64,000 nt of DNA from Monosiga brevicollis MX1 (Eukaryota; Opisthokonta; Choanoflagellata; Craspedida; Salpingoecidae). The notes under the pieces were generated by a model. The model had not been told where the DNA came from, did no database searches, and worked only from the letters and a program-made list of their open reading frames with translations. Each line of letters opens with the position of its first letter. Positions within the stretch are counted from its first letter, which is position 1. This document shows positions 4,601 through 50,921 of this stretch, piece by piece. Both the position numbers and the translations under genes were made by a program. Location: positions 238,089-302,088 of the forward strand of contig NW_001865067.1 of assembly GCF_000002865.3 (NCBI RefSeq), written 5' to 3'.

Positions 4601-7600
4601 TCTCAATCGCGATGGCGGTGTTCGCGGGGAGCTCAAGCGCACAGCTGCCGCCCGTCAGACTGACTTCTCGCAGGTGATTGCTTGCCATATTGGGAAAGTG
4701 GATATAGCGAGGATAACGTACGGAAGAAGAGCCGCTGCAGGTGAAGGAGTCAAAGCTCAGGTTGGTCGTGTTGAACGTGACGTTGGCTTGGACGTCGCTG
4801 TACGAGTACGAAGCCACCACGGAGACTTGACCATCCACACGACTTGAGGGATTGAGGGTCACCTCCTGGATGCCGGCAAAGTTGAGCTGACCGTTGCGAT
4901 CCGTGGTCATGCGACCATCCGCAATGAAGCGGTCATAAAAGGTCACCTGGGCATTGCTCGCGTAGATTGAGCCCGTGCTTTCGAGAGTCACGTTGGAGGA
5001 CACGCTGAAGCTGCCCGTGTTGGCCACCGACCAGTCACCCGAGATGCGCAAGTCACCGCTGCTAAAGCTGCAACTCACGGTGCAGGACATGGTCGCACCC
5101 TCGGCAATGTGCAACCAAGCTTCATCGTACAGGTATGTTGTGTAACTGGTATCATAGACGACTGCGCCGTGGTAGGTCATGTTGCCGCCACGGATGTAGA
5201 GCGCGCGATAAGAAGTCACCTCCACGCTGCCCAGCACCTCCACGCTGCCCGTTCCTTCCATGTCAATGGTGCCGCCATTCCAGGCGAGCTGGTCATGAAT
5301 GGTGATCGCACCAGGCACGTGCAGATGCACGTAGTAGCTCAACGACAAAGCCTTCCAGTCCAACGTGCTTTGGTCAAAGTAAATGTCGCCGTACGAGTAG
5401 AAATAGAGGTAATCGACCTGCAAAATGCCCTCAAAGTACGCCGTCTCGCCCGAGCTCATGTCTGAGGTCAAGGTCTCTGTTTTAATGACCGAGCCGGAGT
5501 GGGCGCGCACCGGATCGACAAAATGCAGTGCTCGCACGCTTACATTACCGTGCAATTCGGTGTCGCCAGCCAAATACAGGCGGCCCTTACCAATCACATC
5601 GGAGCTGGACGCAAAGGTTGCGCCTTCCGCGACGTACAAAGTGGCCTCCTCTCCAATCTCGAGTTGTCCGTGCAGCGTGAAATGGCTGGTCTGGAGAGTG
5701 CCCGTGACCAGAGTGGCATGGCCATTGATCTCGACTTGCAGGTTCATGTACATTGTACTTGGATAATCGAAGAGAACTTCATCCTCAAAGACGACCTTAC
5801 CCTGACGGCACGAGCTGGATGAGCTCGTGGCCATGTAGTCCTGCACGCGAGCCTTGGCCAGGAAGAACATGGCGCTGTCGGCGTCGACGCACAAAGTCGG
5901 GGTGGTCATCTCCACCTCGCTCATAAAGGTGGCATTTGTGCTGTACAAGTAGAGGCCAGAGTTGTGCCAGTCCACGGGGGTTTCGAACACGACCTGGCGT
6001 ACGCCGTTGCTGCCGGCACTAAAAGTCGCTGTGCTCAAGCGCACGTCCCTTGCACGCACTGTCACGTCGCCATTGCCTGTGATGGTACCGCTGGAGAGGA
6101 GGAAACGCTCGGTGATGACCACGGGCGAATTGAAGATCATGACACCCGACACGTCGATGTGGCGAAGTTCATAGGGTTCTGCTTGGCTGCGCACCTCGAT
6201 GGTTCCTGAGCTGGTGGTACGAATCTCGCTCACGCCCGCCAACTGCACCGCGTCCAGGGTCACGTGTGAGTTGGAATCGTCCACATGGAGCAAGGACACA
6301 CCGAAGGATAGACCCGAACCGATGGTAATGTTGGCTGCATTCTCCACACGCACAATGCCATCGCCGGAAATGCCTCTCGCGAGGATGTGATTGGAATAAC
6401 GGAGACGCAACCACGCTGCGCGGGTTGCAAGCGTGATGTTGCCGTTCACGTGAGAGGCGGCGGTCCTCGAATCCAGGGAGAGCAGGCCCTGATGAATCAG
6501 CACGTCCTTCAGGAAAACAACAGTGCTCGAGAAGCTAATTGAGTGGGTATCGGCGGGCAGCGAGATGGTGACCGCACCCTCAAAGACCACGCTACCATCC
6601 CCATTGAAGGAGTGTCCGGCCACAAAGGAGTGGGAAGCACCCGTGAACCGCAGCTCCGCGCCGGCTGCAATGGAGTGCGAGCCGTAATTGCCGCGCCAGA
6701 CTGCCGAAGAGTTGACGTGAACAACCTTGTTGGCGTCCAGGGTGAATGCAGCCGTCGCGTCGCTGACGGTGTGTACGTAAGCATCGGTGCCGGCGCCACC
6801 AAAATTGGCGTAGCCCTGCAGCTCGCCCAAAATCGTGGTCTTGCCATCCACATCCAGGGCACCGTAATTAGACATGTAAACGCGAACGTTACTGCCAAAG
6901 TGCGCATTGCCAGAGATGACGAGCGAGCGATACAGATTGAATGAAATCTGCCCATGATGGCCCACCACTTGGATCGAGCGCAGCTGCAGCGGCGTCGAAG
7001 ATGAGTCGGTCGAAATGGTGATGGGTTGATTGGCGTTGATGAGGAGGTCGTGATTGGCGCCGGGCACCTCCTGGGGGCTCCAGTTCTCGGGATTCTCAAA
7101 GTCCGTGTTGCCAGCAGCGCCGGTCCAGACCAAGTTGGCCCCAGAGCTGCAGGCACTGACATGACGATCCTGGCAGGTATCATCAATCTCGCACCACATG
7201 CAGGCTGCATCGGCGGTCGTGCAATCACCCATACTCGTGTGGGCCGAGCACGCAAGCGGACACTCGCTGTCAGAATAAGTCCAGCCACACGCGACGCCCT
7301 CCGCGGGGCCCTCAACGCTGCCTGAACGACAAATGTTGGAGAAGGTGTCCCAACCACATTCTGGACGTGCCGCACACGAAGCACAGGAGCCATAATCAGC
7401 GCAAGTGTCATTTTCCTGGTCAATCACGGTCAAGAACCCGGTGCTCTGGCTATTGATGACCACGTTATCAGCGGGCGAATACACCGTGGCATTGACGCCC
7501 AGCAACTGGAAGTAATAGGATGCCGAGCTGCGGTAGGTCAGAGCACGATGCACGTACACGGGCATGGCTGTGCGCAGCGTATTGCCCCAGTACGCTCCAA

Positions 7601-10600
7601 AGTATAAGTCGTCGATGCATAGAACAGCATTGGGATCTTGTGAAGCTAAGATTTCGAGGGTGCTCGAGAAGGAGATGTACTTGTAGTGTGTGACCGACTG
7701 GTCGGCAAAAGGCAGATGATAAACGCCCGCCGTTGAATTGTAGATCAGTGCGTCTGAGCCGAGGCGCAGCGACACGTTGCTCCACAAATCACACGGCTCC
7801 TCACAGCCCACAGCGGAGCTCATGAGGTACAAGCTGCCGTCGTTCTCAAAGGTGAGACTTCCGCCGTTGAAAAACGAATTGACCTGCATCTCACCGCCGG
7901 TGACAGTAATATTACCAAAGTTCATCATGTTGTCCAGCCCAATGTTCGTATCGTCGCTCAATAGCAACGTGCCGTAATTGATGTAGTGGCGGTATGTGTC
8001 CAGCGCCAGGCTCCCCTCAAAGATGGTGGTGCCGTACGTCACAAGTTGTGCCGCGTACTGGCTGTACTCAAGATCCAGCGTAGAACCACGTACATCCAAA
8101 AGACCATTGACGGTTGCGCGGCCCGGACCATAAATTTCAAACGAGCCAGTGGACCAGCTGCGCAGATTGTTGAACGTCAGCGAGCCGCTGCCTTGCATCC
8201 AAAGCTGACCGCCGTGGCCCGAGAAATCTTTGGTGAATTCGACGGGGAATAGGGCGTAGAGACGATCATTGCCTTGGAGCTCAAAGTCGCGATCCACGCG
8301 TGCAGGGCCGCCCAGGTAGTAGTAGGCGTAGTACGAATCCTGATCATACACAAACTCGGCATCCTCGTGTGCCAAAAACTCGGGCAATAGGAGTGCCCGG
8401 CCCTGGCGCAGGATGACGCGGCTGCGCACGTTGTCGCCAATGAGAACCGTGTCACCGTTAGTCTTGTCGATGTACAGGTTGGTGGTGTTGATGAGGCTGC
8501 CGGTGGGGAGTTGAAAATCGCCGCTTCCGCTGAAGACGACGCCATGGCCGTTGAAGACGACAGAAGCGTCCGCTTGGACGCGGTTTGTGATGTTTAGGAG
8601 CGCTGTCTCCTGCACATTGAAAACGGTGTTTTCACCCACGATGAGGGCACCAACGATGACCCAGTCACCATAGAGGGTGACCTGGGTGTCGGGGCCGAGG
8701 ACGGTGGGGCAGTAGAAGCGCATGATGCTCCTAGTGTCCACGGGATTGAATTCGATGGACTTGTTCACCACAAAAGCATTGGCGTTCTCGGTGCTCACGG
8801 AAAAGCCGCTCTCCACAAAGAGACCACCATGCGCATAAAAAATGGCGTCCGTGTAAATGTACAGATTGAGTTCGTTGTCATCGGCATCCACGTCGACGAG
8901 TCCGTGCACGATCAAGCGTACGCCACGCAGATAATGCGACGAAGTGGTGTTGAGCGACACGCCGTTGGCGACCTCGAGTGAAACATCACCGTGGCCACTG
9001 ATGGTACCTGATGACCAGGTGATTTGGTTGGCCTGGGCGCTGACATGAGCCAGACGCACGACACCACCGCCGCGTACGATCAGGCTGCTGGTGTTGAAGG
9101 GTACGGCAAACGACAGAGTACCGCTGAAGACCGTAGCCTGGCGCAGCTGCAGAGGAGTGGTACCATGCACTTGAATGGCACCGTTCGTGGCAACAAGCTC
9201 CCGCAAGCCCTCTAGCGAGTCGGTATCTTGGATGTCCAGAACCGCATTGGAGCTCGTGGTGCGCATGCGCTCAATCTGATGGGCCACGCCCTCGCGGAGC
9301 GTGGTCGTACCCGAGCGCACTTCGAGGTCACCGCCGCCCATCAAAGGGGATTCGATGGTGGCGTCATCCAAGACGGCAAGGGTGGCACCGCTGAGGACTG
9401 TGATGTTGCACGTTGGGCTAGTGGTGAGGCGACCCACGGCAACGGTACCGCAAGCCAAGAGCATGGCGGCGTCCGGCCCCATGGTCACAAAAGGCAGGGT
9501 CACATCAACGCACGTGGAGCTGGACACGCGCAGCATGCCATTGTTGGCAATGTAGCCCGCACCGGAGATACGCACGTTGGCGTCGTGGTCTATGATCACC
9601 GTACCCTCGCTGACCCAACTGGTGTCGCCCTCAACGTAGACGTTGTCAGTGGAAATGATCCACGTCCCGGTCGTGCGAAGGGCTCGGCGCAGGTAATAGC
9701 TGGAGGAGGTTGAGGTGAGCTGCACCATCGGGTCGTAAACGGTGAGCAGGCCCTGCTCGCCCTCAATGTAGCCAGACTGATAGTCTAGATCTGAGAGGAT
9801 GTGGCCCTCGCCGTACAGCTGTAAATGGCCATTGTTGGCGATGGTGGCGCGTGTCGTCGTGAAGTTTTTGACATACAACTGTGCGTAGCCCGAGGAGATG
9901 GAGAGGTGGGATGTCGTGAGCGAGTCCACCTCGACCGTCAAGTACGCGCTGTTTTCAACGGCCACCTCCTGGAAGGCAATGTCACCATCAAAGCTCACGC
10001 TGGCCTTGGCCGAGCTTTGGACTTTGAGGTTGGCCACGCTGAAGACACGTGCGCTGACCACGGCGTCAACCGACGACCCGGTGAACACGACGTCGCCCGA
10101 TCCCTCAACAGAAGAGGAAGGCAGGAAGGAGATATCGTTGGTGGCACGTAGCTCGGCGTCTTCCTCGACGGTGATGGCGCCAGAGATGGAAGTAAACCCG
10201 GACATGACGAGGGTACCCGACGTAACGTGAACCGATCCAGCCACCACGAGATTAGTGTTGATGGAGATGGAATCGCTGCCGGAATACTGCGCCACGCCGA
10301 GATCCAGCGAACCAAGGTGATACCAAGAACCGCTGCCAGATACGGAAAAGGAATTAGTGGCCATACTGGATGAGGACCCGGCCGCCGTGTTGAGGCGAGC
10401 GGCGTTGGTGAGGGAAAGGGATCCTGAGCTGGTCACCCGAAAGCCGGCGTTGGCGTTGAGCTGAACACCCGAGAGGGTGTAGGAGCTGCCGGATAGGATA
10501 ACTGTGCCGAGGGCCTCGACAACGCCGGTGCCCATGATGTCACCAGACACCCAGCTAAAATCACTGCCCACGCGAAGACTCTGCTCAACCATGAGATCGG

Positions 10601-14153: not shown

Positions 14154-14819
14154 NNNNNNNNNNNNNNNNNNNNNNNNNNNNNNNNNNNNNNNNNNNNNNN
14201 NNNNNNNNNNNNNNNNNNNNNNNNNNNNNNNNNNNNNNNNNNNNNNNNNNNNNNNNNNNNNNNNNNNNNNNNNNNNNNNNNNNNNNNNNNNNNNNNNNNN
14301 NNNNNNNNNNNNNNNNNNNNNNNNNNNNNNNNNNNNNNNNNNNNNNNNNNNNNNNNNNNNNNNNNNNNNNNNNNNNNNNNNNNNNNNNNNNNNNNNNNNN
14401 NNNNNNNNNNNNNNNNNNNNNNNNNNNNNNNNNNNNNNNNNNNNNNNNNNNNNNNNNNNNNNNNNNNNNNNNNNNNNNNNNNNNNNNNNNNNNNNNNNNN
14501 NNNNNNNNNNNNNNNNNNNNNNNNNNNNNNNNNNNNNNNNNNNNNNNNNNNNNNNNNNNNNNNNNNNNNNNNNNNNNNNNNNNNNNNNNNNNNNNNNNNN
14601 NNNNNNNNNNNNNNNNNNNNNNNNNNNNNNNNNNNNNNNNNNNNNNNNNNNNNNNNNNNNNNNNNNNNNNNNNNNNNNNNNNNNNNNNNNNNNNNNNNNN
14701 NNNNNNNNNNNNNNNNNNNNNNNNNNNNNNNNNNNNNNNNNNNNNNNNNNNNNNNNNNNNNNNNNNNNNNNNNNNNNNNNNNNNNNNNNNNNNNNNNNNN
14801 NNNNNNNNNNNNNNNNNNN
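14154..14819. other. Assembly gap (run of N)
   Basis: 666 consecutive undetermined bases between the divergently transcribed giant protein gene and the teneurin. It is flanked on the right by a TCTCTTC repeat, which probably caused the assembly break. It may hide the first exon of the minus-strand giant gene. Confidence 1.
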
Positions 14820-34786: not shown

Positions 34787-37700
34787 ATGGCCGTGAATCA
34801 CCCTTATCATCCTGCTTATGCCGTCCCTGGGTGAGTGTCCCTCACTCGCCTTTTCCGTGACCCCTCTCCTTCGCTTTGAGGCCCGTGGTCATTGTGAAGA
34901 GGAGGAGAGCACTTGCCAACCAATCCTAGTCCCCTCGCAGCCCATCAGCCTTTGGCTCACATCTTGGTTTGCCGGGGGAGGACTCAACAGTCACGTCTCC
35001 ACAAGTAGCACCATGGCGTCTGCGTTACCCACCTCACTCAAGAAAAAGTCCGGACAAGGCAATGATTTGAACATTGACGACTTTCTCAGCCTCTTGCCCT
35101 CTTTTGGCAAAGCTCGTGCCCCAGGTATGCTTCACCCGCCTTCGACCCGTCTCCGCGTCATCGTCTCATAGCTTCAAAGCATCCAACACGCCAACCCGCC
35201 CCACGCAACGCCATGCCCAACCCTCCTTCTTCAATCCCCCCTCCCCTTCTCGTCTCGGAGCCTTAATCCTCTCTTCCTGCACGCGTGAATAGATCCAGAC
35301 CAGGGCGATGACGCCGGGACCGCCAGCCGACGTCTCAGCCGCTCCAACAGCATGCGGTCTGGCGCTGGCTCTCCCGTGCGGAAAACTCCCAGCGGCTGTA
35401 TTACCTACACCGTTCAGGCCAACGATACCTTGCGCGGCGTCGCCGTCCGTTTTGGCATGGCACCCGGGGAAGTTCTTCTCCTCAATAAGCTCAGCGGCTC
35501 TTACGTCTATCCCGGTCAAACCTTGTTTGTCAAAGACCCAGAAAGCCAGGAGGCTGTCAACTACATCCCCGCCACTGCTCCTGACAAACGCGTACGTCCC
35601 AAACTTAAGACACCGAAAACTCAAAAGGAAAAGAAAAGGACAAAAAAAAAACCAACTGCCACAATACTGGCTCGCACCCACCCACCCACACACGGGTGGG
35701 GCAGGCAGCTGGATGCGTGTCCTTGGATGATTGCGCCTCTGACATGTCTCACACTTTCTTCTCTTTACTCTGTAGGTTTCACCTCGCAGCTCAACTGCCG
35801 ATTATGTCCAGAGTCGGCTTCGGCAGCCTTCCATGTCACGGGTTGCACGCCGCTTTGCCGGTCCCAAGATCGACCCTACCCTCGTCTCTATCACCCCCAT
35901 GCCCCAAAACTACCTCGCTGACCTCACCCTAACCCCGATTGAGTACTTTCGCGAAGACGCCGTGCGCCTGCACTGCATGTACTTTACGGACGGGGAAGGG
36001 ATTATTGCCGGTACTCTCTCCATGGATACGCACCTCGTCACCTTTCTCCCCGATGTCAGCGACCTCGTCCGAGAGCTGGGGGCTCAGCGTTTTTCCTTCC
36101 AACTCAGTATGTATTCCCCCTTGTTCCGAGGCGAAGCGCTCCGCACCCGGATTTCCTCTGCCTACTCACCGGTTTCTTTGCGCACCACCGCCTTGGCCTA
36201 TCCCAATGGATCACTTCGCCACATGGCTACGTCGCATGTGTCATTAGACACGGAAGACTTGTTATTACCGCGCTCACAGACGGCTGCGCCCGAGTTTCGT
36301 CCCCATCATTTGGACCCTGCCGGGCGCCACCATGCCCACTTGCAGGAAGACTTGCGACGCACGATTCGATTGCTGGGTGAAGATTCTCCCTACGTTATCC
36401 AAGCAAAGGCAACCCTTGGCGACCCAGAAACCGATGGCGGCAACTTGACAGAGGACGAACCAGACGATTCAGAAGATGGTCAGGACACTGAGGACACAGC
36501 AAACCCAGACGAGGCCCTGGCCAGACTAGACGCCGCCCAAGAAAAGCATGAGCAAGCGATGACTGCCGCTGCCAACGTCTCGCTCACAGCAGTCAGCGAT
36601 CAAACTGAAGTAGCCAGTGTGGTCACGCCTTCCAAGGCTGATTCAACATCGGACAGCCTAGCCACGCCCGCGACCCCAGCTTCCGCTCTTGAAGCAAGCG
36701 CCGAACAGGCTTTGCCGGAGCCGGCGCCTCACGGTGACGCTGCGGCATCAGCTGAGGCTACCGCGTCTGGAGGCGACGCCGCAACCGCCGCCTCAGCCTC
36801 CGCTACTGCTGAGGCCATCGTGGAGGCGGCGGCCTCGGGCCAAGACACAGAGACAAGCGCTGTCGCCGGTGAAACTGCAAAGGCGGCCAATGTCACCGCC
36901 ATGCTCAAAACACCCGCCGCTCGGCCGACTCGCCGGCGGTTGCGCTCCAACGAGGACGAGGACTACCCTCTCTACATCTGCCTTCGTCAGCAACTCGTCT
37001 TTGGTGAGCCCCCAACTGCCGGAACCGTTGCTCAATATTGGCTTGGCGTGAGCCGGGGTCGCCTTGAACCTGCCTTCCAGTATCTTGAGCATACCACCAA
37101 GGTTGCCGTGGCCCACAACAACTCTTGGGAGGTGGTCGAACACGAGGAAATGGCCCCAACGGAACAGCAGCGCCTTAATATGATGCTCAGTGTGCCGAAG
37201 ATCAAGTCCAAGTTCTTGACCCCCGACATGGTTGAGGCCGTCGCCCAGCATTTGCCCAGCTGGCAGCGCCTGTTGGACTGGAAAATGATTTATTCTACCT
37301 ATCGCGATGGCATCAGGTTTGTCCACCGGGGTCAAGCTTCTTGTCGCCATAGAGACTTTTCGTGACCCCGCCCTGGTATTCTTTGTGACCTCGCATTATG
37401 CAAGTTTGCCTGGTTTCTCATCTCCTTTGCTACTGTGTATTTTCCGCGTGCGTTTCAATGTATAGCCTGGGAACTTTGTATAAGAACGCCGATCAACACC
37501 CCGGGGCCTCGCTTTTGTTTGTGCGAGACACAGCTGGTCACGTATGTTCGAGCTCGTCATTTGCCACGTCTGTTGATACCAAGTGATCGCGCCGCCCATC
37601 CTCATGCACATCCGTGCTTTGTTGCTGCATGTAGATTTTTGGCGCGTATACCCCCGACACGTGGCACCCCAGTGAAAACAAGTTTTACGGCTCAGGCAAG

Positions 37701-39056: not shown

Positions 39057-42000
39057 ATGCGTGTGCTGCAAACAAGGCGTCGGCAAAGCCGACGCCCGCA
39101 AGGCGGTCGGCTGTCATGGTCGAACAAACCGTTGGCATTGCTGCTGGCTGCCTTTGTGACTCTGCTGGCTCCCACCGCCCAAGGCTTCCCCGTGACCGGT
39201 GCCATGTCCACACTGCTGGGATCAAACAGCACCCACTTTGTGCACGAGATTTACGGACAGCGGCACGCCATCTTCCCTGCTCCGCTCGCGCCCGCGGCCA
39301 ACTGGCTTGCTCGCGATCCGCTCTTAAATTCGTTCATGGCCGAGGCCGACCTCAACCGAACGCTGATCACACTGGTCAACCTTTACGGTCGCAGCCAAGA
39401 TGCAATCGCCTTTCGTGACCGTCACGCTGCTGATGTACCACTTGATACGCTTTTGGAGCGCGTGTCCTTGGAACACCTCTACGACTACCTCGTCCAGCAC
39501 AGCTATTCGGTGGTGATTCGTGAAGAGTATTTTCCCGGGTACGCCCAAACAAGCCTTGAAGAGCTGATTCAGACGGCTTTTGGCAGCTCGACAGTCACCT
39601 CGCATGTGTATCTCTCGGGCAGCGAGGCTCATGCTCTCAACCCTCACACCGATCCGTATGTCATCCGGGCACCTTGAACGCGCTTGAATGAATCACCTTG
39701 ACCTGCAATTAACCCTGGTCTCTCAACGTGTTGATAGTTACGACGTATTGGTCCTGCACCTGCATGGCCAGAAGCATTGGACTGTCTGTCATCCGTTGGA
39801 TTCCAGCACCGAGTGGGCCGATGCGTCCCAAGCTCAGCTGGCCCAGCTCTTTGAGATCCAGCGCAAGAGTGTCGACGGTCAGGCCAATGCTTTCACCGTG
39901 TGTTCTTTAGCATCACGTCCTTGAAAATCGCAGCTGACCTCTACCCCACCATTCCCCATGTGTGTGGTAGGCTGCACAAATTTTGACATTGCAGAGACGG
40001 ACAAGATGCGCTGCGAGCATTTCACCCTCAGTCCAGGCGATGTACTCTACCTGCCAAAGTCCACCATCCACTTCGCCACAACATCGCCCAACACAACTAC
40101 CGCGCATATCACCTTGTCCCTGGAGCGACAGGGCCAATCTTGGATTGATCTCGTCCGCCGTGCATGTGCGGTTCTTGACAACCAGGCTTGTACCGTTATC
40201 GAGAGTACCCTTGCCTCGCTTGAGACTTCACCCTCTGGCCTTCACTGGCTTGAGCTGGCCACGTTTCCTACGGACGAGCCGTGTCAGATGGCCCAAAAGC
40301 GTCTTCTTGGTTTCGAAAAGGACTCTCTGCGTACGCTCGTGGCCCAGGACCCACAACTTGATTTCACCTACGTGACCTCCAAGGATGTCTTGGCTACCCT
40401 CCAGCGCTTGGCTAGCTGTACCGCCTCTTTGGGTTGGGATTCACAGGGACGCGAAGTGACTTTTGAGGGCCTTCTCACCAACCCAGTGACCCATTACGAC
40501 GTACGCTCCCTCACATGCTCTTGGCGAGTGACGAACACGCGCACTCACAATTAACCCCTCCGTAGATTGTCGAACGTCACCGCCGCTCGGCTCCCTGGAC
40601 GGCACCTGGCAATTCTCGTGGCGGCTCTTGCAATGGTTGTGTCTACTACGAGTGCACGTATGTTCAGCGCAATCTAGTTTGCCCCCTTTCCAGTCTGAGG
40701 TAGCCGCCTCATGCTATCCTATATTATCTCCTACCACAGCAACCGTTGTAACTCGAACTGCGGCAGCTACGTAAGATTCTTGCCATCAAGCCCTTGCAAA
40801 CCAACCAAACAAACAAACCAAAAAAAACAAAAACAAAAACAAAACCGACATGTCGTTTCATTAGCGTCCTCTGGCTCTCACCAAACTTAGGGCTGCAGCG
40901 GAGGTTGTGACGATGAGTGTGACGATAGCTGTAAATACCTTTTTTTTGGCTGCGATGGCGGGTGGGTATTCGGACCTCTTAAAAGTGGCTAGGGCCTTGA
41001 TGATCGCATCTAACTTTGAAGCCCCGCGCGCCTGTGGCAGTTGTGACAGTGGCTGCGATGACTCATGCTCCAACAACTGCGCCACCTGCACGGGAGGCTG
41101 TGTATGTTTTATGTGTCCAATCCGTCGGCTTTCAAAGCACGTGGAAGAGAAACGACTGCCCTCATCACCGACTGGTCACCATGTAATAGAACTTGGGCAA
41201 GACGCGATGCAACTCCTGCAATTGCCGCGCTGGACACTACTTTCAGGGGGGTAACAGTCATAACATTGCCAACAGTGGGTGTCGAGGTAGGCGCTCGTGA
41301 GATTACGCATGTCCTTTGCATTTCATCATCACGCCTCAATGCACCAGATCTCTCATCTTCTGAACAGATTGCACAGCTGGAAAATATCAAGATCAGACAA
41401 GCCACTTGTCACGCTCTTGCAAAGACTGTGCAGCAGGCACATCCAGTGGTAGCACGTCGCGCACGAGCCCGTGTCCAACCTGCGCCTCGGTGGGTAGTCA
41501 TGGAACGAAAACATTCCCTTCCAATGCTCGAGAGTGTGATTTTTAGCTTCAAGAACGTGTTGGGAGTTTGATTTTCTACCTACCTGTTAATGTCAACACC
41601 TTGCTTACCGGGGTTGACGATTGGTTTTATTCCAGGGTACCTTTCAACCGTCCACGGGCGCCACATCATGCCTGTCATGCTCCGGTAGCGGCACCAAGTG
41701 CAACACGGGTCGCTACACCACTGGTTGTGCAGGCACTTCCGCTGGAAGTTGCACGGCATGTGCAACCAACTACTATCAGTCTCAAAACAGTGTATACAAG
41801 ACGGCCTGCACACGGTGCTCTACTTGCAATGCCGGTCAATTCTACACGTGCAACGCCAACTCAGGACTTGCATGCACGGTTCGTGTTGCTTAGAAAGAGT
41901 GAACAATACTAGCACAGGGGACAGCCTTCACCTTTGCGCGCTTACATCATCTGGTCTCTGTAGGCATGTGGAGGCGGCACATATCAGTCTTCCGACGCCC

Positions 42001-45000
42001 ACCGCAGCACCAGCTGTTTGGCTCAAAACACATGCGGAGCAGGCTCTTATTTTTCGGGTAGCATCTTCTCGGCCGGCTCGTGCACCACTTGCAATTACGG
42101 TACCTACATTGCCACCTCTGCCCACCGCACTACCTCATGCACGCCGTGGCCCACCTGTCCGGCCGGCACCTTCAAGTCTGGAGCCACCACAAGAAGTGGT
42201 GGCTCGTGTGCCGCATGTGGCAGTGGAACTTTTCAAACTACAAACAGTCACATCCTGACGTCTTGCTCTTCTTGCGCCGCCACGGGCAAGGTCTGCGGCA
42301 CTGGCCAGTATCAATCGGGTTGTGCTGGTCCATCTGCTGGTGCCTGCTCCTCCTGCCCAGCCAACACCTATCAAGCCTCTTCCTCGCACCGCCTGACCAG
42401 CTGCACAAACTGCAGAACGTGTGGCACAGGCCAGTATCTTGCCAATTGTGCTGGTGCCACTGGCCCGGGCATTTGTCAAGTGTGCAACTCAGGCACCTAT
42501 CAGAGCCAAACTGAACACCAATCACGCACCTGCCCATCCTGCGCTTCCTGCAGTCCGGGCTATTATCGTGACGGTTGCGGTGGTGGAAGCGCAGGAACCT
42601 GCGTTGCCTGCGCGAGCGGATTCTACCAAAGCCAGCAGGTCGGACTGCGTCAGCCTCTTTCCAAGCCCCGCATAGATCAAGAATCCGCCTTCTCACACCT
42701 TGAATGCCTCTTTTGTGCGTATGTGCTTTCTCCACTTGTCCTCCTCTGCTTCTGCCCCACCACAATCGCAGACATACGCTACATCTTGCTACCCATGCCC
42801 TGGCTGCCCGAGTGGCTACACCCGCACTGGCTGTGGGGGCTCCGCAGAGGGCACCTGCGTGGGTCTAGTCTGCCCCGCTTTGCCCGCAGTCAGCAGCGCC
42901 GTGCTCACGTACAGCAATTCAGAGCGACGCTATCCCGTTATCGCAACGTTTGCGTAAGTGCACCTGCCGGCTCGTTGAGAGGCGTGTTGTCAGTCAGGCT
43001 TGCCTCGCGAGTAGCCTCATGTCGTTCCTCCTGTGTTGATCTTGATCCTGTTCCAGCTGTGTTGCGGGATTCGAGCAGACCGGTGGGGATGCAAGTCGCT
43101 CGTGCACACCGGCGCTGACCTGGGCAGGAGCAGAAATCATTTGCACCCGTGTCTCTTGTGGGGACCTGCCCGCGCTCAGCAATGGCTTTGTGGACACGAG
43201 CGGTGGCATTGATTTTGAGAGCGTAGCCACGTTTTCTTGCAATGAGGGTTATACCCGAAGCGGCCCAGCGAGCCGCACCTGCCAAGCCAGCGGCGAATGG
43301 TCAGGCTCTGCGCCCATGTGCGTGACCTTACCTTGCCCATCCCTGCCCGTGTTTGCCCATGGGTCGGCGACTAGCTCTAGCAGCAACCCGATCGTGGGTG
43401 CGACCCTCACTTACGCATGTGACGCCGGCTACACTCTTTCGGGCAATACCGAGGCCACATGCATTTGGTCTGGCTCCGCCATGATGTGGAATACTGAGGC
43501 ACCGACCTGCACCGCGATTCCGTGTGACCCTCTCGTGGCACCAGCGAACGGTGAATTGGACGTGTCAAACAACGGCATCTTTCCCGCCACTGCAACCTAC
43601 AATTGCCAAGCCGGTTACACGCTGACAGCGGATGGCACGCGCACCTGCCAGACAGATGGCACATGGAGCGGGTCTGTGCCAGCCTGTACTGGTGTGCCAT
43701 GTGAAACCCTCACGGCACCGCCGTATGGTGCCGTGAGCAGCACCCACAATTGGTTTCCTAGCACGGTCACCTTCACTTGCTTTGATGGCTATGAATTGGC
43801 TGGAGCAAGCTCTTTGGAGTGTCGATCAGACGGGAGTTGGAGTGACAGCGCACCCACCTGCAAACCATGCGCCGTCAACATGTTCCGCAATACCTCCACC
43901 TCGGGCCCTCAGTGCGAGTCCTGCCCAGCGTTTAGCTCGACTGGCGGCCTCACGGCACGTGTCACGTGCGCCTGTAATGCTGGCTTTGGTGGTGTGGCTG
44001 GCTCATGTCAAGCTTGTCCTGTAAACACCTCAAAGAGCACAGTTGACAATGCACCCTGCACTGCTTGTGCACCAGGATACATGACCTCTGGCACCAACGC
44101 TGAGACATGTGATGGCGTTCCTTGTGCCATGGTCCCCAGTATTGCCTACGGATCGTTCATTTCCACAAACAACAATCGCTATCCCTCGACTGGCACTTTC
44201 AGTTGCGAGACTGGGTTTGCGCTCGCCAACGACGACAATGGGGTGCGCACCTGTCAGATTGATGGATCGTGGTCCGCCGAAGCCGCCAGCTGCAGTCCCG
44301 TGTGTGGCGACGGTATTCGAGTGTTTGGGGAAGAGTGCGACGATGGCGCCAACAACGGGAACGACGGCTGTGCAGACAACTGCACAATCACTCCTGGCTA
44401 TTACTGCCATACAGAAGGCGAAACCTGCTCAGTTTGCTCCATCAACACTCCACCTTCCGATCTCACGGTAGATTGTGCCGATTACGCCGTCGATTTGGCG
44501 GTGTGGCGCGCAAACAACCTCGGTGCGGTGGCTGACACGCACACCAACTGTGGAGCTCCGACTTTTACCACGACAGCCCTCAATGTATCTGGCCCTGACC
44601 CAGGGTGCAGCGCCCATCTCTTCCGGGTGGATGTTAGCTTTGCCAAGGGAGGCTCCGACTTTTCGCTGGCCAACCTTCGAACGTCAGATACGGTGCCGCC
44701 AGTGTTCACGGCAGTACCCGATGGAGGCCTCACATATCAATGCCACGCATTGCCATCGGCCAGCAGCGGTATTTCCGCCACCGACACTTGTGCGGCCTTT
44801 GTCAACATCACGAGCCGCGATGAAACGATCGCCGGGGCCTGCGCAAACAACTACACGCTGCAGCGAACATGGACGGCTGTGGATGGATGCCAAAATGCGG
44901 TGTCGGTCACCCGCAACTATACGGTCATTGATACGACAGCACCCACATTTCAGGTCCCGCCACAGAATCTGTATCTCGAATGTGACGGCACGCCGCAGGA

Positions 45001-48000
45001 CGCGGCCATTCAGGCCTGGCTTGACAACAATGGTGGGGCCACCATCCGGGATGCGTGCACTGGGCCCGTAACCGTCACGCACAATTTTGCCGAGGTTGCC
45101 CACGGTCTTGTGGCTGGCTGCGCGGGTGTTGTTGGGAACGCAACCGTCACATTTCAGGCGGTGGATGACTGCGGTAACATGGACCAGGCCAATGCCACAA
45201 TTGTGCGCCGCGACACAACACCGCCCGTGTTTGTTGAATTTCCCGATAACGTGACCGTTTCGTGCAGCGCAGCCGAGCCCACCAATTTTACCGTTGCTGT
45301 CACCGACATTTGCACAGGGAATGCAACCGTGGTGCTCGCTCAGACTTGGACCGAGCCCAGCGCAACCTGTGGTCACGCATACACGGTGTTTCGCACCTGG
45401 ACGGCCTCGGATGTCTGCGGTAACAAGCTGAACCTTACACATACCGTGAGCGTTGTCGACGAGACGGCCCCCACGCTGCCCAGCGGCGTACCCACCACGG
45501 TCCTTGAGTGCAACGCTGACTCAACTCGAGATGACGTTACAGCCCTTTTGGAAGCACATGTCAACATTTCAGCAGCGGATGCGTGTGGTGGTAATGCCAT
45601 CACCTGGTCCTTTGATGCCCTCAACCTGTCTTCGACCCTGACCGGCAACTACTCAGCCCAGCTTTACGCACATGATGACTGCGCCAATGCGTTGCCTGTG
45701 GCGGCCCCGATCAGTATTGTAGATACCCAACCGCCGGTGCTCTCCAATCTCTCCGTGGCCATGGCCTATGAGTGCGATGCAGTCCCACAGACCGAAGACG
45801 TTGTCGTCCGTGATGCCTGTGATACCAATGTGCAAGTGGTTTTTGGGGACAACATCACCCAGGGCCAATGCCCTCAAAGCTACACCCTGGCCCGCACGAT
45901 CTGGGCCACGGACAATGCTGGGTGGCAAGACAACTTTACGCAATTCTTGACCGTGGTTGATACCACAGCACCACAGTGGGTTGCCCCACCGGCCGACGTT
46001 GTGTTTGAGTGCGATGGTGCAGGCAATACCGCCAACGTGACCTGGTGGTTGGAATCCTTTGGCAATGGCACGGCCCAGGATGCCTGCTCAAGCAACGTGA
46101 CCTGGCAATCAAACGGCGCCAACGCCACCTGGTCCCAAGGCTGTGGTCAGACGCTGGCAACCTCAGTTCAATTTAGCGTGCAGGATGAGTGTGGCAATGC
46201 TCGGACGCACACCGCGTCTTTTGCTGCTCTCGACACCCAACCCCCCGTGCTGTACTGGGCCAACACCACCGTTGCGCCTGTGTCGACTGCAGCCCCTGCC
46301 TCGATCACGGGTGCAAGCACTTCAAATACGAGCTCGAGTGCTTCGCCCACGACTGGGCCGGCTGTCACATCAGCACCGGCTGGCGATGAGCCAGTGTACT
46401 TGGTCGGCCCACCGCCCAACATGACTCTGGAATGCATCGGTCGGGCTGGCCTTGAGCCCACGCGCCCTGATCCGTATATGGTGATGGCACGGGATGTGTG
46501 CTCGGGCTCAGAATATGATGTTGCCTACGAGGAGACGCGACATGATGGACACTGCATGGGCCTCGTACGCTACGTGCGGGCGTGGACCGCGGTGGACAGC
46601 TGCTCAAACGCTGGCACCATGTATCAAACCGTTGCCATCCAGGATACCACCCCTCCTCAAGTGCAGAGCCCGCCCCAGGATCTCCAATTGGAGTGTGATC
46701 GCGAAAGCTCTGCTGGCCAGCTGCAGCAGTGGCTCGACGCAGCCGGCTACGGGATAGCCGAGGACACGTGCTCGGACGTCACTTGGAGCCACAACCTGAC
46801 AAATCCAATGACTACATTCCACGCATGTGAAGGGATGAGCAGCATGGTTGTGCGCTTTACCGTGACTGATGACTGCGGGAATGCCGCCCATGCTTTTGCC
46901 ACAGTGAATGTGGTCGACACGCAAGCGCCCATCATTACGGCCGTGCCCCCTGCGCACACCATCGAGTGTGACTTGGCTAGCCAGGATGCACAAATTGAAG
47001 CCTGGCTGCTCCAGTCTGGTAACGCTCTGGCTGTCGACGGATGCAGTGATACGCTCTCACGCAACTATACCTCCAGTCAGCAAACCATGTGCGCCAATAC
47101 CAAGGTTGTGACGGCCAATTTCAGCTTCACAGACACCTGTGGCTGGCAAGCCAGCGCCTTGGGTACTTTGAGCGTTCAAGACACGGTACCGCCCACCATC
47201 GTCCTACGCGGATCAAATGCCACCACCACGGAAGCTGGCTTTGCGTGGCTTGATCCGGGAGTGGAAGCGGCGTTTGATACATGCCAGGGCGCCATCAACG
47301 TTAGCATCGTGCAACGTCAGCAAAATGTTAACATCTCCACTCTAGGAGAGCAGGCGATCGAGTACGCAGTGGCCGATGACTGCCAAAACACAGGCAGTAT
47401 CGTGCGACTCGTGACCGTGCAGGACACCCTGAGCCCGGTGGTGCGTGTGCAACACATTGTAACCCGCCGCATTCGTCGCGGCGCCAAGTTTTATCCTTCG
47501 GCCGACGTCACGGCCGAGGACTGGCTGGAAGGATCTATCACAAACTTTTCATTCGTCCCACCCGTGGAGGAACTTAGCGCGTCGGCAAGTGGCATGTACG
47601 TGCTGTCCTACGCTGCGTCGGATAGCTCGGGCAACATGGCCGTTGCTCCGGGCGAACGGGTCATTGTTGTCGACGCTGAGACCGAGGCCAATGTCTCGGA
47701 GAGCTCGCGTGTAACGTTGACCTTTGACACACGACTGGCCACGCTGGCAGTGCCGGCCAGGGCTGTTGCCGTCTCGCTGTATGTCATCCTTCAAGCAAAC
47801 GGCGATGAAGCATCCAGCGCTCGCCAGCTACTGACACAGGCCTATGAACGTCGGCTGGCCGTTTATCGCGAGCCGCTTTGCTGGGCTCATCAGGCATCGT
47901 TTGTGCTCTGCCGCTTGGACATGGTGGAGGCTGCACAGCGACATCTGGAGGCTCTGCTCACACTTGAAGGCTTGGTGGCTATTGCACCTTTTGGCGTCGA

Positions 48001-50921
48001 TGTTCTCGCGTATGAAATTGCCGTCGCCGACTCGACACTGGCCGTGCAGCAAGACTACTTTATGCGAATTGGTGCCATTGATGCCGCGCTCATTGCGTGT
48101 GAAAGCACGAGCTGCCGCTATCATGTTGAGCGTTCGCAAGTCGTCCAAGCTGCCGCACAAGAAGCCGCTTTTCCTCGCGCCGTCTTACAGCTCCGTGCCC
48201 TTTCTTCGTGGAAAGATGCCGACAATGTTGAACAAGATCTCTTGGCATTAGGTTTGTTCCCGCTATTCGTGCACGCCACGGATGCTGCATCAACCTTTGA
48301 GGCCATGGTCCTGGGCGTACCCGAGCAGGATGCCTTGATCAGCCTTTTGCAGGAACGAAACTTGGAACTGAGCGAAAAGGCGGATGTGGCTAGCAACGTC
48401 GTGTTTGCCAGTGGCGTGCGTTTTACGCTCAATACCTCGGAGGCCCCAACCGTGATGGAACTGCTCCACGGCTGTGGTTTGGCAGGTTATTCTATCGTCA
48501 ACAGCACGCATAACAATGCGACAGGGACGCTGGACGTCGTTGTCCAAGTACCTGGCGTTCTGCATTCGGCTATGCTTGCCACCTTGCAGGCCCAAGCAGG
48601 TGTGCTGTTCGTGTCAGACCCGTGGGCAGTGCGGCAAGCTCCCATCCAGGAAGATGAGTTTCCGTTTGCTTGGCAATGGGACCTTGACCTGGATCGTCTA
48701 CCAACGACATCGACGACTCGCTCCACAAGCGCCACTGTCACCTCTGAAAGTGACTCGGCCTCCTCCTCTGCCAGCCCCCTGCAGCGTCGCGATGTGTAAG
48801 TCAAGCTTTGCTTATCAGCCGGTCGTTTGTGAAGGGTTGAACTGGACAACTAGCTTCTTTGTACATGACTGATCAGCGCCCTTTGTTATTGCCGGCCGCA
48901 GGGATTCAAACAGCTCGGTACCGATGACGGCTGAAGAGTATATTTCCGCGATCCTCGACGACCTCAATGCGACGTCCAAAACAGAGTTTGCTTGTGAGGG
49001 CTTTTCCGCCGCCCTTTGGAGCTGCACGCTTCGGACGGCAGCCCATTGGTATCCAGATACTGTGACAACTCTGCTGTCCACCTATCCGGGCGTTGCGTCT
49101 ATCATGGTTGCCAACGACACAAGCATGGTGGGCTCGCTACAAGATGCGGTAGAGGACTGGATTTGTAAGTTTCCACGGCCATCTCGCGTGTCAAAACTTG
49201 GGAGCAGGTTTGGGAAGATTAGACAAAATGATGTGTGTCTGCCATGGGCTAGACCTCTGGGCTGGACTTGTCCTGTGCATGTGCTGATGCTCGTGTGTGG
49301 CTAGATGAAACCCTTGGTCAAGACGGAGCTCCAAGCTTGAGCGTGCATGTTCAAGCCGAATTGACTGGGACAGTGGTCAATGGTCAGCGCAATGCTGTGT
49401 ACACTGTCACGGCCGGCTTTGTCAGCAACCCCAATGCCACGTACAGCCAGCTGTATTCAACGCAGGGTGCCTTTTTGGAGGGTGACTCTTCCTTCACGGC
49501 TTTGAGAGCCAGCATTCTGGCGCTGAATATCGAAACAATCGTGGATGTCGTCCTGTCAGATGATAGCCCTGATGCCGTGCTCTTCTCTACGCGACCACTA
49601 ATGGAAGATGCAGAGGTGATGCAAATTCTCTTGACCAACACGGCTCTCTTTGATTTGGGCAATCCAGGTACAGCTGTGCAAATCTCAGTGTCCAACCCTG
49701 CCTTGTCTGCAACACGCGCGCATGAAACAGCCGAGCAGATGTTGTGCACCTGTGCTTGAGCAGGATTGCTTTATTTTGTGTTGCTTTCGCTTTTTCGTCC
49801 CCCTGAGCTTGCTTGCCTTCCTGCTGGCTTTCACGGCCCTGTACGCAAACTCATTTCAAAAATTGCTGATGTGACGCCCCCTGTAGGCACCAAGGACGTC
49901 GATCTAACGGCTGGTGATGCCGTTGACATTATGAGCTTTGAGTTGAATCGCACAACCGTGGCTGTCACTCTTGAAGGCTATGTATTCTTCCAGGCCCGGC
50001 CCGCCACCTTGCTTCGCAGCGGGTGGGTACCACCTGCAACCACAACAACGCGCGGGCCAGCCAAGCCACAGCCTACGAGCACATCGGACCCCACACACTC
50101 TTCCTCCAGCTCTTCCTCTGCTTCGTCATCCATCTACATTGGTGCGATTGGTGGTATCGTCGGTCTCTTGGTGTTGGTTGCAGTGGTCGTCATGGTCCGG
50201 CGCTGGCAGCGCAAGGGCACCAAGCCACAATTCGATGCCCAAAACACCGATCAGGTGAGTCGTGCCATGACCCTGATGTATAGCCTTTTGGCGAAAGTAA
50301 TTCATGTGAGTATTGAGGAGGCTTTCTGCGTGTCTCACCTCATATTGTTGGGGGGCTCGTAGAACATGAGTGATTTCCGAACCGGCGTTGTCAACCCTCT
50401 CTGTAAGTCATAAAAACTGTGGAGCTTTCCATAGCGCGTGAGATTCGTCGCACTTGTGCACCACCGCAGAATGCTCATGTTCTTGTTTTGGCTGGGATAC
50501 GATAGATGGCGGGGTAGGTGAGGTTCAGGAATCTACTTATGGAGACGCTGATGCTGGTGGGGATGGCGACTATCAAGACCTCCACCATGAAGTCTGGGGA
50601 AAAGGCAACGACGAAGATTTGCAGGCCGATGGGATGTACTCTGACATGTTCAATGAACCAGATAAGGCGGAAGATGATGGGCTTGATGAGAGCGGCTATT
50701 TGAATGTGGGGGGGGACATGGAGACTTCTGAGGATACAGAGCAGCCGGGATTTGGATTTGATGCCTTTGGCCAAAACGATGATTTTGATCAGAATGGATT
50801 TGACGACTCCTACTTTGAGGCCGATGACCTTGATCGAAAAAGCGGTAACGCCGATGAGTATCTTGAAGCCGATGGTTTTGAACAGGAGGACACTGCCATT
50901 GACGATGAAACTGATGAATGA
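39057..50921 (+). CDS. Single-pass receptor with N-terminal JmjC/cupin domain, Cys-rich, Sushi and HYR-like repeats, Tyr-rich tail
   Basis: Eighteen exons with unbroken phase give 3331 aa: 39057-39655, 39738-39877, 39971-40500, 40566-40657, 40740-40770, 40891-40961, 41041-41101, 41190-41250, 41368-41489, 41636-41878, 41964-42638, 42772-42953, 43057-48795, 48902-49164, 49305-49667, 49887-50254, 50363-50402, 50506-50921. Residues 26-43 are a signal-like hydrophobic stretch (PLALLLAAFVTLLAPTAQG). A JmjC/cupin oxygenase-like domain follows, with HTDPYDVLVLHLHGQKHW (metal ligands H197, D199) and LSPGDVLYLPKSTIHF (H280). After about 423: Cys-rich CDSGCDDSC and ephrin-receptor/TNFR-like repeats (CxxCxxGxY), Sushi repeats from about 895, a DGIRVFGEECDDG Cys-rich repeat, and ten or eleven HYR-like Ig-fold repeats (DTTPPVF...ECD). 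A transmembrane helix (YIGAIGGIVGLLVLVAVVVM, about 3140-3162) precedes an acidic tail with seven tyrosines. The ends of exons 2, 6 and 8 have alternatives. An early stop at 40552-40554 would result if intron 3 were retained, leaving a free JmjC protein. Confidence 0.82.

Follow-up and report, generated by a model that had tools for sequence, protein, structure and literature searches.

Does the gene at positions 39057 to 50921 of the window (the whole 64,000-nucleotide stretch of Monosiga brevicollis DNA analysed here) encode one protein in which a JmjC domain is carried at the head of a receptor, or do a JmjC gene and a receptor gene lie side by side? The species, a unicellular relative of animals, belongs to the choanoflagellates, which are a common reference for the origin of animal receptor tyrosine kinase (RTK) signalling. 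JmjC oxygenases are known as intracellular or ER-luminal proteins, and a fused gene would put them on receptors.

Gene model of the locus

Splice sites were picked by hand from GT-AG ends, phase and comparison with near copies, giving a predicted model on the + strand (39057..50921; all its features share this strand) that starts with the ATG at 39057 and whose stop codon ends at 50921. Its 18 exons agree in splice phase, as the initial annotation had held, and were assembled without an internal stop into 3343 aa, in an order that is intact in the copy on contig C34. For exons 2 and 3 the splice pair 39877/39971 was kept among the enumerated choices because a related locus, L025, reads the same stretch intron-free.

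Residues 1-423, the JmjC head, are encoded by exons 1 to 3 (39057-39655, 39738-39877 and 39971-40500). They begin with a signal-like N-terminus (39057..39191), whose hydrophobic core LLLAAFVTLLAPTAQG was called by hydropathy. In keeping with the JmjC/cupin-like domain first read from the letters, Pfam matched the 423 residues to JmjC_2 (PF08007, E 2.8e-18, 66.1 bits against a curated cut-off of 22) and to Cupin_8 (E 1.7e-8). The JmjC_2 domain covers residues 167-298 across three exons (39555..40125, by arithmetic) and holds K212 together with the metal triad H197, D199 and H280, which had been placed correctly from the start, coordinates included. After the junction intron (40501..40565) come nine exons (40566..42953: 40566-40657, 40740-40770, 40891-40961, 41041-41101, 41190-41286, 41368-41489, 41636-41878, 41964-42638 and 42772-42953) with CDxxC and TNFR/ephrin-receptor-like Cys-rich repeats, for which Pfam gave TNFR_c6 (1.2e-11) and Ephrin_rec_like (1.9e-6) over 41967-42692. 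The long exon 13 (43057..48795) adds five Sushi stretches, DUF4215, HYR_4C and an Ig-like domain (PF16403, Bact_surface_Ig-like), all matched by Pfam on 43046-48799, and a stalk. Two further stalk exons, 48902-49164 and 49305-49667 (48902..49667), lie in frames without a Pfam match.

Exon 16 (49887-50254) contains the predicted membrane helix, residues 3154-3174 (50138..50200 by arithmetic; hydropathy 2.84 over 19 residues). A Protocadherin match on the frame of the helix, at 22.0 bits, fell under the cut-off of 26.3 and was rejected. The cytoplasmic tail (50201..50921) is spread over three exons (to 50254, 50363-50402 and 50506-50921) and has 162 aa with 7 Tyr, no Cys, 31% Asp/Glu and an NPLY motif; this acidic, Tyr-bearing tail with NPLY is common to the window and C34 copies. 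Pfam found no intracellular kinase in the frames past the membrane helix. The ectodomain has 162 Cys and 45 N-x-S/T. The ephrin-receptor-like, Sushi and HYR-like repeats, the signal-like start, the helix and the tail of the initial annotation were all recovered by Pfam or hydropathy, and by these two measures the gene has the features of a type-I single-pass protein: signal-like start, extracellular domains, one helix and a tail.

One fused gene

Two near copies of the gene were found, on contigs C34 and C44. The C34 copy, spliced by fit to the window protein, is stop-free over 3342 aa and has the same whole domain order; the fit gives it 19 exons, with a further split in one exon of the window model. 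The C44 copy is N after 43439 and informs on the JmjC part, the first Cys and Sushi exons and part of the tail only; its apparent divergence past 43439 was dismissed on this ground. The exons flanking the 40500/40566 junction are 98.5% and 97.8% identical to C34 and gap-free, against 70% identity with 10 gap columns for the sequence between them, a comparison in which this gap behaves as an intron. Its acceptor is TAG in the window and CAG in C44.

The alternative is two adjacent genes, one encoding a secreted JmjC protein that stops at 40554, the other a receptor on its own. The window copy does hold an in-frame stop at 40552-40554, inside the junction intron, but this stop is absent from both C34 and C44, where the frame is read straight through. 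In exon 40566-40657, three of the four variable sites seen by eye leave the residue of the fused frame unchanged and the fourth alters it, which again speaks for the fused frame.

A separate receptor would also need its own start. The initial annotation had stated that the Cys-rich exons lack a Met or signal peptide of their own. The first part needs qualifying, since three nested ATGs (40913, 40955 and 41000), among 15 in window 40300-41250, read unspliced into exon 41041-41101. The second part held in the window, where their hydropathies of 1.93, 1.73 and 1.62 are all below the signal threshold of 2.3. The same test on C34 gave no in-frame Met upstream of that Cys exon, and on C44 five in-frame ATGs, at positions unlike those of the window, one of which (MAVVTVAVTIAAAFG) is hydrophobic. 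No separate receptor start is therefore conserved across the copies; in single copies there is a small chance of one, and C44 alone leaves room for it.

The strongest evidence for fusion is the uninterrupted frame of another locus, L038, in which 1298 aa unite the C-terminal part of JmjC_2 (4.2e-7) with Ephrin_rec_like (6.6e-31) and TNFR_c6 (3.7e-11). Chance agreement of splice phases is ruled out by the near copies, the junction intron and the L038 frame. With the domain order kept in C34, the 40552 stop unconserved and the single frame in L038, the original proposal of a receptor-like protein with a JmjC domain at its head was borne out: head and receptor are almost certainly one fused gene, and a pair of adjacent genes is very improbable.

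Between the window and the C34 copy (L021/L022), identity of the introns ranges from 47% to 99% (16 of 17 compared), a patchiness that suggests gene conversion. At 40891-40961 the window reads through while C34 and C44 hold extra, apparently intronic sequence, possibly a recent intron loss.

A family of probable JmjC-headed receptors

In the genome (39.47 Mb, 57 contigs) an Unc18 exon agrees at 44 of 44 residues with chain A of PDB 2XHE, the Munc18-syntaxin complex of M. brevicollis (PMC3693963), and the RTKB2 peptides described below point the same way, so the DNA is taken to be from M. brevicollis or a very close strain. We searched this genome with the 423-aa head and obtained at least 47 matches, 43 of which were grouped into at least 22 loci; four weak ones, with E between 1.2e-3 and 1.4e-2, were left out (two on C39 and one each on C50 and C43). 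Twenty of the 22 loci were read, the two outside that set being C38:694500-703300 and C47:793800-803200. HxD...K...H is kept in all 20 (in L047 by eye), and JmjC_2 was matched in 14 of the 14 members scanned, a set that excludes the near-duplicates L021, L023, L026, L030 and L033, and L047. Downstream of the head on the same strand, searches placed TNFR/ephrin-like Cys repeats at 14 of the 20 loci (nine by tblastn, the window gene, L025 and L027 by Pfam, and the two near copies by DNA match), and by eye they are present in the translations of five more (L026, L031, L039, L040 and L047), so that the tally spans all the loci read except L030.

A hydropathy rule with threshold 2.3 called a signal-like start ahead of the head in 18 of the 20 loci; the rule was silent in L037, and the L047 start, MIGRAQAVAATSLWILAAITHA, lies under the threshold. 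On random stretches of the same loci the rule fired in 112 of 600 cases on the same strand and 58 of 600 on the other (10-19%). Judged by sequence features, the family very probably consists of JmjC-headed receptors of type-I surface topology, the window gene being a member.

Two close pairs occur, L025/L026 and L030/L031, the members of the latter being separated by about 10 kb on C41. Ephrin_rec_like and Big_5 were matched in L025, and only a weak Big_1 in L030; membrane helices were seen in L025, L030 and L031. A bacterial origin of the head, sought with one peptide pattern on genome contigs, was set aside with one of 26 candidate stretches confirmed, and a viral origin with none of two. 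The sole bacterial locus confirmed (L048 1501-1791) is a JmjC relative in a Polyangia bacterium MAG, at 31% identity.

Kinase and SH2 domains downstream of the head

This is a multigene family that extends to tyrosine-kinase and SH2 receptors, which the initial annotation, confined to the window, had not seen. A kinase domain follows the head on the same strand in at least four of the 20 loci: L036 (Pfam E 9e-17), L037 (1.9e-14), L039 (3.5e-21) and L047 (PF07714, 9.1e-35 and 2.1e-37). As 135 of 686 candidates were scored in the genome kinase search, the kinase-bearing loci are at least those listed. By eye, L047 keeps HRDLAARN and DFG, and its kinase stretch matched one EGFR chain in the PDB at E<=1e-25. 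L036, L037 and L039 are, by eye, without the usual HRD and VAIK lysine and look like pseudokinases. Three of the nine RTKB kinases are without key catalytic residues according to PMC3584944, and the three loci may be these.

SH2 domains lie downstream of the head on the same strand in three of the 20 loci. In L035 one 1303-aa frame (5223-9131) runs from HYR/Ig-like domains through a membrane helix to a tandem SH2 (1.3e-18), and this receptor may bind its own phosphotyrosines or those of a sister receptor. The SH2 of L038 is about 11.5 kb past the head, in frame (by arithmetic) with its Cys-rich exon, and that of L040 about 7.7 kb past it. The loci outside the set read gave an SH2 match about 7.5 kb past the head on C47 and a kinase match about 6.3 kb past it on C38. 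In L035, L038, L040, C38 and C47 the head is linked to the signalling domain by position, not by exon-by-exon tracing. L035 also holds repeated YEEPVVQAQEGDR motifs.

L047 is RTKB2

RTKB2 was the first unicellular RTK studied biochemically (PMC3584944). Its published site EEVYEAI, sought as a DNA pattern, has a single genomic occurrence, at C51:10325-10345, and the reversed control pattern has none. SEEVYGAVVD, from peptide RTKB2-1, shares that frame; where the synthetic peptide RTKB2-2 begins with A, the genome encodes C. The frame of the RM2 peptides continues from the L047 kinase. By these RM2 peptides L047 is RTKB2. The published domain map (PMC3584944) gives Cys, HYR, SCR, EGF, membrane, kinase and six RM2; L047 likewise has Cys-rich, Ig/HYR-like and EGF domains, a membrane helix and a kinase. 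The map shows no JmjC, and neither JmjC nor cupin occurs in the paper's text. The window gene, for its part, is without a kinase.

The published kinase construct spans 1450-1724 (PMC3584944). In a rough L047 gene model that begins at its signal-like Met, the kinase falls at residue 1465, a number that is approximate (the model was trained partly on L047, with one 3-base exon and a long frame partly cut). The JmjC exons account for about 356 residues, and without them the kinase number would be near 1100. Because 1465 is close to 1450 and 1100 is not, we infer that the JmjC domain is most likely already part of the published RTKB2 model, unrecognised. This agreement in numbering also argues against two adjacent genes.

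Another M. brevicollis receptor, RTKC8, resembles the window gene in its Cys-rich and HYR ectodomain and tyrosine tail and differs in having a kinase and a CAP-Gly domain; the word JmjC does not occur in the text of the RTKC8 paper (PMC10263333). No JmjC receptor was named in the titles and abstract openings searched; an earlier mention in King 2008 or Manning 2008 is possible. In 2013 a ligand was known for no Monosiga RTK (PMC3584944). An oxygenase domain recognised as the outermost part of RTKB2 and of many sister receptors offers something concrete to test about what they might sense or modify.

The head as a probable oxygenase

Nineteen heads were spliced by fit to the window head, in an alignment that leans towards that head and includes near-duplicates (window/L021/L023, L025/L026, L030/L031 and L032/L033). 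The Fe(II) triad H197, D199 and H280 is invariant in all 19, as are K212, Y185 and T294, which we take, from their alignment with MINA53, to be the 2-oxoglutarate-binding Lys, Tyr and Thr. H183 and H292 are also present in 19 of 19 heads, and so are the cysteines C217, C248 and C261, with C320 in 18 of 18 and C312 in 18 of 19. Between the window and C34, dN/dS is 0.12 over residues 147-300 (7 silent and 3 replacement changes), 0.31 over residues 46-423 (15 and 15) and 0.27 over the whole protein, ratios from one copy pair that are rough because changes are few and the patchy divergence suggests gene conversion. From this pattern of conservation the head is probably an active oxygenase. The invariant active site and extra cysteines would fit a lumen-adapted enzyme, turnover being unproven by them.

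Outside cells, free Fe(II) and 2-oxoglutarate are in short supply, so the conservation of these residues may mean cofactor binding for folding or sensing and not turnover. The head might then be a cupin that binds Fe(II) with 2-oxoglutarate, oxygen or a small acid at the surface and relays this to the kinase, SH2 or tail. Such a sensor would need invariant cofactor-binding residues for binding alone, and the head is kept on receptors with unlike interiors (kinase, SH2, tyrosine tail). Nevertheless, the catalytic set is complete in every one of the 19 heads, as in active hydroxylases, and a JmjC receptor with this kind of sensing is not known to us. We regard a non-turnover head as rather unlikely.

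A 14-head profile matched, best among 16 sequences of solved structure, MINA53 (RIOX2, 7.9e-20) and NO66 (RIOX1, 4.6e-18), followed by bacterial oxygenases at 1.8e-6 and weaker. Within the JmjC_2-type domain, the residues that align with MINA53 are H-x-D, a Lys placed 15 positions beyond the first His, then the second His and H-x-T, a set shared with NO66. MINA53 (structure 2XDV) and NO66 (structure 4DIQ) are intracellular enzymes, and in ribosomal oxygenases the JmjC core is followed by dimerisation and winged-helix domains. The heads described here differ in being N-terminal, of secreted type, fused to receptors and richer in conserved cysteines, and the sequence that separates the two matched blocks does not align. 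The pocket may differ too: where these heads have the invariant H183, MINA53 and NO66 have Asn. JMJD8 is comparable in that it carries a signal peptide and resides in the ER lumen, and it has been called the first JmjC protein found there; it has the JmjC domain only, without a receptor part (PMC5684140).

MINA53 and NO66 hydroxylate ribosomal proteins, and M. brevicollis is a bacterivore. An active head might act on a bacterial or environmental protein, either at the surface of the cell or within the food vacuole, and the diversity of the family (at least 22 loci) would suit this. Its substrate is, however, purely conjectural and the scarcity of cofactors outside cells counts against it, which makes such a role distinctly improbable.

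Proposed mechanism

On balance we lean towards a proposal in which JmjC-headed receptors hydroxylate receptor ectodomains in the secretory pathway and act in phosphotyrosine signalling. The head would fold and bind Fe and 2-oxoglutarate like MINA53 and NO66, be stabilised by family-specific disulphides, and hydroxylate a protein side chain. Our best guess is that this would take place inside the secretory pathway, on the ectodomain of its own or a partner receptor, much as ASPH hydroxylates EGF domains; action on receptor ectodomains in the lumen is plausible but tentative. The tail of the window receptor would recruit SH2 or PTB proteins, and the sister receptors would signal through their own kinase or SH2 domains.

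A further reading, which we consider unlikely, is that JmjC-headed receptors, RTKB2 included, directly link a reaction or binding event outside the cytosol, dependent on oxygen, iron and 2-oxoglutarate, to tyrosine phosphorylation inside. It would amount to an oxygen- or metabolite-gated RTK system in a close animal relative, one that has no relation to the HIF pathway.

Elsewhere in the window, there is a run of 666 N at 14154-14819, and a 529-aa open frame lies upstream of the gene on the same strand, at 35776-37365.
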